Positions 35,753 through 38,956 of a stretch of DNA of 64,000 nucleotides are shown here, in pieces. Position 1 is the stretch's first letter. Each line of letters starts with the position of its first letter. The stretch covers positions 124,001-188,000 of the forward strand of contig NZ_LT635451.1 in the NCBI RefSeq assembly GCF_900120005.1. The letters run 5' to 3'. The DNA is from Holdemania sp. Marseille-P2844. Its GTDB lineage: Bacteria; Bacillota_I; Bacilli_A; Erysipelotrichales; Erysipelotrichaceae. Position numbers and translations under genes: made by a program. Below the pieces are notes generated by a model that ran no database searches, was not told the origin of the DNA, and was given only the letters and a program-made list of their open reading frames with translations.

Positions 35753-36709
35753 ATGCGAAAAGTATTGATTTTAGGCGGCAGTTATTTTATCGGCAGACGG
35801 ATTACAGAACAGTGTTTGGAAGATGGCTGGGAGGTTTCGTTATTAAACCGCGGTAGTCAGCCATGGACAGGCAGACCGGTAACGCAGCTGACCTGCGATC
35901 GGGAAGACGCGGCAGCGATGAAACAAACGTTAAAAGGCAGAACTTTCGACGCGGTGATCGACGTGTCCGGATTAAACCAGAAGCAGATTGAGATCTGCTG
36001 CGAAAGTCTGGATTGCTCCGTTAAACACTGGGTTTTCATCAGTTCCAGTGCGGTTTATGATGTAGACCGGTGTGCGCTGCCGATTTTAGAAACGCAACCG
36101 TTAGGGGAAAATCCATACTGGGGACAATATGGTACCGATAAAATCGCGGCGGAAAGCGCGCTGACGGCATTTTGCCAAAAGCAAAACATCGCGCTGTCGA
36201 TTTTGCGGCCGCCTTATATGTATGGGGAATATAATTATGTGCAGCGGGAAAGCTTCATTTTTGATCACCTGATGCGGAATCAGCCGATTTTGATCCCGGC
36301 GGCGGATAACCGCATTCAGTTCTGCTACACCGGCGATTTAGCCAAGATCGTCACTACTCTGTTAAGGTGTCCGGATCAGGGGATTGAGATTTACAATGTC
36401 GGCGATCAACAGGGCGTGAGCTTCAGCGAATGGATTCAACAATGTGCTGACGTCTGCGGCGCGCAGGCGAAGATCATTCCGGTTCATGATGCAAACTGGA
36501 ACGCCAGAGATTACTTCCCGTTCCGCGATTATGACAATGTACTGGATGTGACGAAGATTCATCAAATTGTGCCGGAAGATACCTCGTTTGAAACCGGCTT
36601 GACGCGGGCTTACCGCTGGTTTTGCGAACATCGCGGCGAGATTGTGTTTAAGCCCAAGCTGGCGGCCAATGAAAAACAGATTCTAAGCGAAATGGGAATA
36701 CAGGAATAA
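35753..36709 (+). CDS. NAD-dependent epimerase/dehydratase family protein
   Basis: 318-aa extended SDR. Rossmann motif LILGGSYFIGRRI, catalytic Ser region FISSSAVYD and YGTDKIAAE (Y-x3-K), substrate region RPPYMYGEYN. Acts on a nucleotide-sugar or similar substrate; the exact reaction is not readable. Single-gene unit with its own terminator. AAGGAG before ATG. Confidence 0.85.
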   Translation: MRKVLILGGSYFIGRRITEQCLEDGWEVSLLNRGSQPWTGRPVTQLTCDREDAAAMKQTLKGRTFDAVIDVSGLNQKQIEICCESLDCSVKHWVFISSSAVYDVDRCALPILETQPLGENPYWGQYGTDKIAAESALTAFCQKQNIALSILRPPYMYGEYNYVQRESFIFDHLMRNQPILIPAADNRIQFCYTGDLAKIVTTLLRCPDQGIEIYNVGDQQGVSFSEWIQQCADVCGAQAKIIPVHDANWNARDYFPFRDYDNVLDVTKIHQIVPEDTSFETGLTRAYRWFCEHRGEIVFKPKLAANEKQILSEMGIQE

Positions 36710-36750: not shown

Positions 36751-36801
36751 TTGACAGAATGAGATTACAACTGTAATATATAAATGTATTACAGTTGTAA
36801 T
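36751..36801 (+). promoter_or_regulatory. BlaI-type promoter with twin operators
   Basis: -35 TTGACA (36751-36756), 17-bp spacer, -10 TAATAT (36774-36779). Operators ATTACAACTGTAAT (36764-36777) and ATTACAGTTGTAAT (36788-36801) carry the BlaI/MecI core TACA-N2-TGTA. The first overlaps spacer and -10, the second the start region. Strong evidence for autorepression of blaI and the M56 gene. Confidence 0.9.
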
Positions 36802-36819
36802 CTGAATGGAGGGACGTTG

Positions 36820-37191
36820 ATGAACGCCGAAAAAATCACTGATGCCGAATTAGAGGTACTTAAAGTTCTGTGGCTGCGGGAACCCTTGACCGCGAATCAG
36901 ATTGTCGAGGAGGTTTCCAAACAAAAGGACTGGAATGCCAAGACGATTCGTACGTTAATCCATCGCTGCGAGGAAAAACAGGCGGTGACGGCCGACCGCA
37001 GCGCACGTGAAATTTTATACAGCCCAGCGATCAGCCGCCGGGATTATACGCGGCAGACACAGAAAAGTCTGGCTGATAAGCTGTTCAACGGTTCGATGAG
37101 CCGGATGATGCTGAACTTCATGGAAGAAGTCCAGCTGAGTGACGATGAGCTAGAAGAATTGAAGGAAATGATCCGCGATGCTGAAAAATAG
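36820..37191 (+). CDS. blaI: BlaI/MecI-family repressor
   Basis: 123-aa winged-helix repressor: ITDAELEVLKVLWLREPLTANQIVEEVSKQKDWNAKTIRTLIHRCEEKQAV, then a dimerisation tail. In this family repression is lifted when the partner M56 protease causes repressor cleavage. ATG 36820 follows GGAGGG; the earlier ATG lies within the operator. It overlaps the M56 gene by 14 nt. Confidence 0.93.
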   Translation: MNAEKITDAELEVLKVLWLREPLTANQIVEEVSKQKDWNAKTIRTLIHRCEEKQAVTADRSAREILYSPAISRRDYTRQTQKSLADKLFNGSMSRMMLNFMEEVQLSDDELEELKEMIRDAEK

Positions 37192-38902
37192 TCTGCGGCA
37201 GCTTCTGGAAGTCTCATTAATGATCAGTCCGCTGATTATCTTGATCTTCCTGCTGAGAAAAAAGAGTCTGCGTAGGCTTGGACCAACCGCCCGGCTGTTG
37301 TTGTGGGTTCCGCTGTTGATTCAGCTGGCAATTCCCGTTCAGCTGACGTCAAAGCACAGCCCGTATCAGAAATTGACGACAATCCCGTTGGCAGATTCAT
37401 TCGCGGAAACGGTAGAACAAATTGAAACTGCGCCGATAATCATCCATCCAGCCCAAGCTGCGCTCTCAATGCCGCCGGACAAGCCGATACCGCAAAATTG
37501 GACCTGGGGCGAGGGACTGGTGATGCTCTGGGTATTGGGAATGGTCGTCATGACGACTGTCAATGGGATCGCCCGTGTGAAATTGAAAAAACGGTTATGT
37601 CTGCAGCCTTGTTCTCCCGCGCTGGGTGAAGAAGCAGTGCGTCAGATGCGGATTAATCGCTGCCTGCAGATTCCTGTCCGGCAGAGCGCGAGCCTTCACA
37701 GCTGCGCGATTTATGGCAACTTGATGCCGCAGCTGGTCTTGGGCGCAGATTTTAAAGAACGAACAGAAGCGCAGCGGAGAGTGATGCTCGATCATGAATG
37801 CCTGCATGTGAAATACGGACATCCATGGTTTCTGGGATTCATTCAGCTGCTGGAGATCGTATACTGGTTTAATCCGTTAGTGCGCCTGATGATGAATCAG
37901 CTGCGGCTGGATCTGGAATACTTCATCGACGAAAAACTGCTGGAGGATAAACCGCAGGCAGACCGGATCGGTTACGCTCGCCTGTTGCTGGCGTTGAGCG
38001 CGGATCATGATGAGCGGGCGTTGCAGTGCCTCAATAGCAAGCGAACACAAAAACGATTTAAAGAAAGGATGGGATGGATTGTGAATAAAAAAAGAACGCC
38101 GTGGCTGCTTGCGGCCGGGATCGTCCTGATTTGCGCCGGGGTCAGCGTCAGCATGATGGTAAAACCGGATGCTCAGTCCGGCTGGGAAATGACGATGAAG
38201 CGGACGCTGATTCAAAACGAAGCGGCGCCGGTTGAATTGACGGACACCCATGAAATCAAGGTCTGGTGCGAAGGCTCGAAGAAAGCGCTGGAATCAATGG
38301 GCATGGAGGTGCCGGTCATCGTGCGGGTTAAGGAATGGGTTTCGCCGACTGGCGAAACGCTGACGCTGACCGATATGCAGCGGGGCGCAGAATCCCTGGC
38401 GCAGCTGGAATTCGGGGAAATCCCGGAATCCGTGACCTGCTTCATGCCAACAGATCGGATCTTTGTAAAACTGACTTCGGACCAGCTTCTTCAGCCGTAT
38501 CCGGTAGCGGGCGGCGCTGACGCCGTAGCCCGGATTCAGGCGATTTCGCCGGTTGAAAACCCTGAAATCACCTGCCGCTGGGGTTGTTATGCTGATCATC
38601 AGGCGCTGGATATCACCGATCCGGATAACAAGCAGGCGCCGATTCTGGCAACGGCGGCGGGAACGGTGAACACGACCGGGTTTAATTCGATCGACGGCAA
38701 TTACATCATTCTTGATCATGTCGACGGAATTCAGAGCTTTTACGGACACTTGGGCGAAATTCAGGTTGCGGAAGGGGACGCTGTCGCGCAGGGACAGACG
38801 ATCGGTATCATGGGAATGACCGGACGGGCAACCGGACCGCATGTACATTTCTATCTGATTCAGAATGAAACCGCGTTGGATCCGTCAAGTTTGTACCAGT
38901 AA
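37178..38902 (+). CDS. M56 (BlaR1-type) membrane protease fused to an M23 endopeptidase domain
   Basis: 574 aa. N-terminal membrane helices; the M56 zinc site HECLH (206-210) lies in a loop, with further helices near 215-235 and 307-330. Outside the membrane there is a linker of about 140 aa, then an M23 (LytM) domain: H474 and D478 (ADHQALDI), H524 (GHLGE) and the HxH pair H555/H557 (GPHVHF). Classical BlaR1 has a penicillin-binding sensor there instead. Coupled to the blaI gene, so it probably senses or remodels peptidoglycan and relieves BlaI repression. Confidence 0.88.
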   Translation: MLKNSLRQLLEVSLMISPLIILIFLLRKKSLRRLGPTARLLLWVPLLIQLAIPVQLTSKHSPYQKLTTIPLADSFAETVEQIETAPIIIHPAQAALSMPPDKPIPQNWTWGEGLVMLWVLGMVVMTTVNGIARVKLKKRLCLQPCSPALGEEAVRQMRINRCLQIPVRQSASLHSCAIYGNLMPQLVLGADFKERTEAQRRVMLDHECLHVKYGHPWFLGFIQLLEIVYWFNPLVRLMMNQLRLDLEYFIDEKLLEDKPQADRIGYARLLLALSADHDERALQCLNSKRTQKRFKERMGWIVNKKRTPWLLAAGIVLICAGVSVSMMVKPDAQSGWEMTMKRTLIQNEAAPVELTDTHEIKVWCEGSKKALESMGMEVPVIVRVKEWVSPTGETLTLTDMQRGAESLAQLEFGEIPESVTCFMPTDRIFVKLTSDQLLQPYPVAGGADAVARIQAISPVENPEITCRWGCYADHQALDITDPDNKQAPILATAAGTVNTTGFNSIDGNYIILDHVDGIQSFYGHLGEIQVAEGDAVAQGQTIGIMGMTGRATGPHVHFYLIQNETALDPSSLYQ

Positions 38903-38933
38903 AGAGGAAAATACATCGCTCTTCAAATCAAAA

Positions 38934-38956
38934 CCCGGAAAATTTCCGGGTTCTTT
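38934..38956 (+). terminator. terminator after the M56-M23 gene
   Basis: CCCGGAAA-A-TTTCCGGG then TTCTTTTG. Confidence 0.85.

Follow-up and report, generated by a model that had tools for sequence, protein, structure and literature searches.

Receptor proteases that act on repressors of the BlaI family include BlaR1 and MecR1, which together with BlaI and MecI govern beta-lactam induction in Staphylococcus and Bacillus. They combine an M56 zinc protease, four transmembrane (TM) segments and an extracellular C-terminal domain, their partner repressors contain an Asn-Phe bond, which in S. aureus BlaI is the site cut by BlaR1 (PMC9834060), and TACA-N2-TGTA operators lie on the promoter. Similarly, a BlaR1 homologue of M. 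tuberculosis couples an M56 protease to BlaI without a beta-lactam sensor and is described as having no equivalent sensor domain (PMC9834060). A review of M23 peptidases notes the M23 and M56 pair among architectures that account for less than 1% of M23 hits; the passage concerned attaches no signalling role, BlaI link or catalytic survey to it and the review adds that M56 has yet to be shown to take part in cleaving the wall (PMC9662197). Our literature searches found no functional study of such a fusion. Here we describe a two-gene unit in a stretch of 64,000 nucleotides from Holdemania sp. Marseille-P2844 (contig NZ_LT635451.1, positions 124,001 to 188,000; hereafter the window, from whose first letter positions are counted), in which blaI is followed by a gene for an M56-M23 fusion protein. 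The unit is probably a cell-wall-sensing circuit that has so far gone unstudied.

The fusion protein (37178..38902, on the plus strand like all stranded features of the window given below) has 574 residues. A preliminary description of the DNA had proposed an M56 core with HECLH joined to an M23 domain with a complete metal set, and both domains are recovered: Peptidase_M56 (PF05569) matches residues 9-298 (37202..38071) with 115.2 bits against a cut-off of 31, and Peptidase_M23 (PF01551) matches residues 474-569 (38597..38884) with 88.4 bits against 28.7. In an alignment that includes six paralogues and a BlaR1 from Priestia, the M56 domain shows every zinc-site residue, with HECLH at residues 206-210 (37793-37807; H206, E207 and H210) and E247, and the BlaR1-type residues D251, Y266 and R297 are retained. 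The M23 catalytic and metal set is likewise whole, its motifs HxxxD, YxHL and HxH being represented by H474, D478, H524, H555 and H557. Four hydrophobic segments (residues 8-26, 38-58, 114-132 and 310-328, the last being TM4 at 38105..38161) match the layout of BlaR1 and MecR1 (PMC6925264), an analogy that would place the last 245 or so residues outside the cell. Between TM4 and the M23 domain lies a juxtamembrane region of about 125 residues (331-455; 38168..38542), a detail missed at first, which has no family match and gives a strand-rich, mostly confident model. The fold prediction for the M23 domain, whose failure had been named as a possible refutation, held: the ectodomain model, with a predicted local distance difference test score (pLDDT) of 83.5, matches many solved M23 structures, LytM, lysostaphin, ShyA and EnvC among them, with Z-scores of 15-20, and the M23 fold is thus confirmed at the level of the model.

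No Pfam match to a penicillin-binding (class D-like) sensor was found in the fusion protein. Its NCBIfam BlaR1 match ends at residue 348, and against NF000326, the NCBIfam BlaR1 equivalog, it scores 73 bits, far under the cut-off of 400. Because the penicillin sensor is missing and the equivalog cut-off is so distant, the system, judged by its sequence, is not a beta-lactam receptor, and each of its parts comes from a known family; with the transpeptidase domain absent, the earlier proposal of a circuit different from the beta-lactam one is supported. Unlike BlaR1 and MecR1, the protein carries an M23 domain and the juxtamembrane region, and its unit holds no beta-lactamase or penicillin-binding protein gene. 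In contrast to the M. tuberculosis homologue, it has a defined and conserved outer domain. The nearest wall peptidases of the LytM/lysostaphin type are M23 proteins of about 502 residues, represented in this genome at C17:245702 (L058), which share 47-50% identity with the window M23, the signature ITC-RWGCY-GHQAxDI and the full catalytic set; these are free-standing, whereas the window M23 is joined to a receptor protease. The name 'M23/M56 family metallopeptidase' is in use in NCBI annotation.

The partner gene encodes a BlaI/MecI-family repressor of 123 residues (36820..37191), as had been proposed, with a PF03965 match of 112.2 bits (E 2.3e-32) and homology to the solved MecI structure 1sd6 (E 4.2e-23). 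Its start is the ATG at 36820 and not position 36784; GGAGGG at 36808-36813 precedes it, and the H. massiliensis orthologue starts there too. The end of blaI is overlapped by 14 nucleotides by the start of the fusion gene. Aligned with MecI and BlaI sequences, the repressor keeps LNF and with it a candidate Asn-Phe cleavage bond; in this genome the six further BlaI proteins paired with an M56 protein lack LNF.

A single promoter, TTGACA-N17-TAATAT (36751..36779), precedes the unit; it has 10 of 12 consensus matches, although shuffled sequence contains promoter-like sites just as often. It bears two perfect BlaI-type operators, neither assigned to a strand: ATTACAACTGTAAT (36764..36777), which overlaps the -10 box, and ATTACAGTTGTAAT (36788..36801), which lies 24 base pairs away from centre to centre. 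Together they form a 20-nucleotide inverted repeat that is 95% complementary, and promoter and operators are conserved in two other species, H. filiformis and H. massiliensis. The twin operators of the preliminary description are the only ones of their kind nearby, since in the whole window just two sites, these operators, match ATTACANNTGTAAT with at most one mismatch, where 0.12 are expected. Outside reading frames, perfect operators of this type are found at the unit's own promoter only. A third perfect site, TTACANNTGTAA at C14:555366, was considered as a regulon target and rejected: its place is within a phosphopentomutase-like reading frame, close behind the start, and a reversed control pattern gives two sites, so that chance suffices to account for it. 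With up to two mismatches there are 110 operator-like sites per strand against 76 for the control, unsorted by regulated gene, and through such near matches a BlaI regulon may extend beyond the operon.

A domain search for further M56-M23 fusions, proposed with the preliminary description, was run on fetched M56 loci, a biased sample with 78 different M56 open reading frames, and recovered 14 fusions from Holdemania and five further genera. The latter contribute L011, L092, L095, L204, L216 and L228; Holdemania contributes the copies A and B described below and a C13 type, of which the disrupted H. filiformis copy L211 was placed in the fused group and is included in the count. A BlaI gene lies directly upstream, on the same strand, of every fused gene or tandem (14/14), so the fused M23 goes along with a signalling pair wherever it was found. 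None of the nine fusions beyond the Holdemania A/B lineage keeps the YxHL histidine, which is replaced by N, Q, G or Y. All zinc ligands are kept in four of these nine (L011, L095, L216 and L228), and one or more are lost in L204, L092 and the three C13-type copies. Among free-standing M23 domains, some found by similarity to an intact M23 and others by a profile search of six genomes, the same histidine is kept in 41 of 42. Loss of catalysis with retention of the fold would be expected of a binding or sensor domain, and the comparison points to binding rather than cutting as the role predicted for fused domains in general. The three Holdemania B copies are the exception, as each retains the whole catalytic set. 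Because this set is whole and the window M23 is the top-scoring M23 domain of its genome in a profile search (92.7 bits), the Holdemania B copy may also cut the wall.

Taking domains, residues, operators, BlaI coupling and conservation from the sequence and topology by analogy, we infer a ligand, a direction of signalling, BlaI cleavage and an M23 activity as follows. Wall material or muropeptides would bind in the M23 groove, and the occupied state would be transmitted, by way of the juxtamembrane region and TM4, to the zinc protease domain M56. The protease would then cleave the partner BlaI at Asn-Phe and so free the twin-operator promoter from repression. Since perfect operators outside reading frames occur only at that promoter, derepression would chiefly raise the levels of BlaI and M56-M23, the unit itself, and yield a wall sensor that is anchored in the membrane, controls its own synthesis and may cut the wall as well. 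We would give an even chance to this proposal, in which a BlaR1-type receptor protease with an extracellular M23 (LytM) fold as sensor autoregulates its own operon. The BlaR1-type route is supported by the M56 zinc site, D251, Y266 and R297, the four-TM layout and the LNF of BlaI, all of which are kept; the earlier suggestion of signalling through the same proteolytic route thus holds as regards predicted capacity. The strong constraint on the M23 domain (see below) also speaks for the proposal. A precedent for peptidoglycan-linked induction exists in a wall dipeptide that dissociates BlaI from its operator (PMC3305447).

Several observations weigh against the sensor proposal. The second-shell Asp of M56 is absent, a further difference from BlaR1 and MecR1: His215 occupies the position in every Holdemania A/B copy and Asp in the other aligned M56 proteins. 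This Asp is not known as obligatory for family M56; in BlaR1 the residue, D210, is near strictly conserved, and its Ala mutant abolishes induction in B. licheniformis (PMC9834060). Given His215, protease activity of the M56 domain should not be taken for granted from its sequence. The full-length AlphaFold model is poor (pLDDT 48), and we claim no receptor geometry from it. In the M23 tree 12 of the 14 fused domains cluster and are therefore not independent, so that the Fisher p of 3e-5 for fused versus free-standing domains, which ignores kinship, overstates the evidence. Finally, the window M23 keeps a full catalytic set that a pure sensor does not need.

This last point leads to the strongest competing explanation, in which M23 acts as effector and not as sensor. 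The unit would then make a wall hydrolase that is anchored in the membrane and regulates its own synthesis; its M56 part would answer another cue, from the juxtamembrane region or from stress on membrane or turgor, and adjust the dose through BlaI cleavage. The intact catalytic residues of the three B copies, the rank of the window M23 among those of its genome, the strongest constraint falling on M23 (see below) and the fusion being the main product of derepression, with perfect non-coding operators only at its own promoter, would all fit. It leaves unexplained why catalytically degraded fused M23 domains are still coupled to BlaI in five other genera, and we regard it as rather unlikely. In a broader form of the sensor proposal, the fusions make up a class of BlaI-coupled receptor proteases whose M23 domain is a peptidoglycan sensor, catalytically disabled in most genera, while Holdemania B would unite sensor and active wall peptidase in one self-controlled polypeptide; this extension we put forward as tentative. 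Sensing might also be indirect, with M23 cutting or general wall turnover yielding muropeptides that enter the cell and serve as BlaI co-activator, as proposed for B. licheniformis, and M56 only trimming the peptide or finishing BlaI off. This seems improbable, as the purified BlaR1 of S. aureus needs nothing else to cut BlaI directly (PMC9834060), the reported affinity is millimolar, and a catalytically dead fused M23 could not release fragments. Many M56-BlaI pairs have neither a penicillin sensor nor an assigned signal. For the present pair, both the fold of the outer domain and its class of substrate are known, which makes ligand, activity and signalling directly testable. If M23 is the sensor, BlaR1-type proteolytic signalling would be a general wall-surveillance module and not specific to antibiotics.

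The unit has a traceable history within Holdemania. Where the window has one M56-M23 gene behind blaI, H. filiformis DSM 12042 and H. massiliensis AP2 each have a tandem of two (A and B). The same architecture in three species and in tandem rules out a fusion by sequencing error, which the preliminary description had allowed for. By sliding DNA identity, the first 40 or so codons of the window gene (37178..37309) resemble H. filiformis A (90% at the amino acid level) and the remainder resembles B (86%). The switch is sharp and falls between about 37287 and 37309, inside a tract common to both copies; most likely, A was deleted by an in-frame crossover that gave B the start coupled to blaI. In H. 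massiliensis (L025), copies A and B are near-identical around codons 37-52, the same short tract, which suggests a spot of recombination or gene conversion. Copy A of H. filiformis (L024:8597-10324) has an internal TAA just before HExxH, which in this type strain makes it a likely pseudogene, and in H. massiliensis copy A the first His of HxH is Ser. In three species copy B has lost neither its reading frame nor the operators nor any catalytic residue of M23. After the crossover point, the ratio of nonsynonymous to synonymous substitution rates between the window gene and H. filiformis B is 0.158 overall, with 0.148 in M56, 0.234 in the linker and the lowest value, 0.080, in M23, the most constrained part. 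The unit is absent from a fourth, smaller genome of the genus, and a search of viral contigs and plasmids gave no full-length relative. That it is a decaying relic without present role, as the broken or lost copies A and the missing unit in the fourth genome might suggest, is very improbable in view of these ratios and of the intact copies B.

In a quick tree of M56 domains, fused proteins appear in several places; well-supported branches force at least three changes and parsimony gives seven. Because the fused proteins are scattered in this tree and 12 of 14 clustered in that of M23, a tree with long branches where L095 and L216 fall elsewhere, sensor domains seem, from these sequences, to have been shuffled among M56 receptors. 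The preliminary description had placed M23 where the penicillin sensor would be, which is right by position; a swap from an ancestral penicillin sensor is not supported, as the nearest M56 clade has other ectodomains and a transpeptidase or penicillin-binding domain has no match in any of the seven M56 proteins of the genome.

This genome of 3.7 Mb encodes seven BlaI-M56 pairs with differing ectodomains (loci L026-L031), among them a C12 protein (L026:5158-7770) with a long repetitive one. A second M56 receptor, of 911 residues (C13:137257; L030:3464-6199, minus strand), has a degenerate M23 domain that scores 26.9 bits, just under the Pfam cut-off, and has lost the HxxxD His, the YxHL His and the first His of HxH; its orthologues are L207 in H. 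massiliensis and the disrupted L211. In genome G082, a blaI gene and an mreB/mbl-like gene stand directly before the fusion L095. The genome of the window has an mreB/mbl-like gene next to a free-standing M23 gene with lost catalytic residues (L031:8333-8980), whose position recalls spoIIQ.

In the window, the two-gene unit is flanked by an NAD-epimerase gene (35753-36709) and a PHP-domain gene (39015). It is followed by a terminator-like hairpin of the intrinsic type with a 9-pair stem (38932..38952), a kind of site also present in shuffled sequence. In H. filiformis the place of the epimerase gene, directly before blaI, is taken by two genes of another kind (L024:6774-8097), the second with a product that by eye is TOPRIM/RloB-like.
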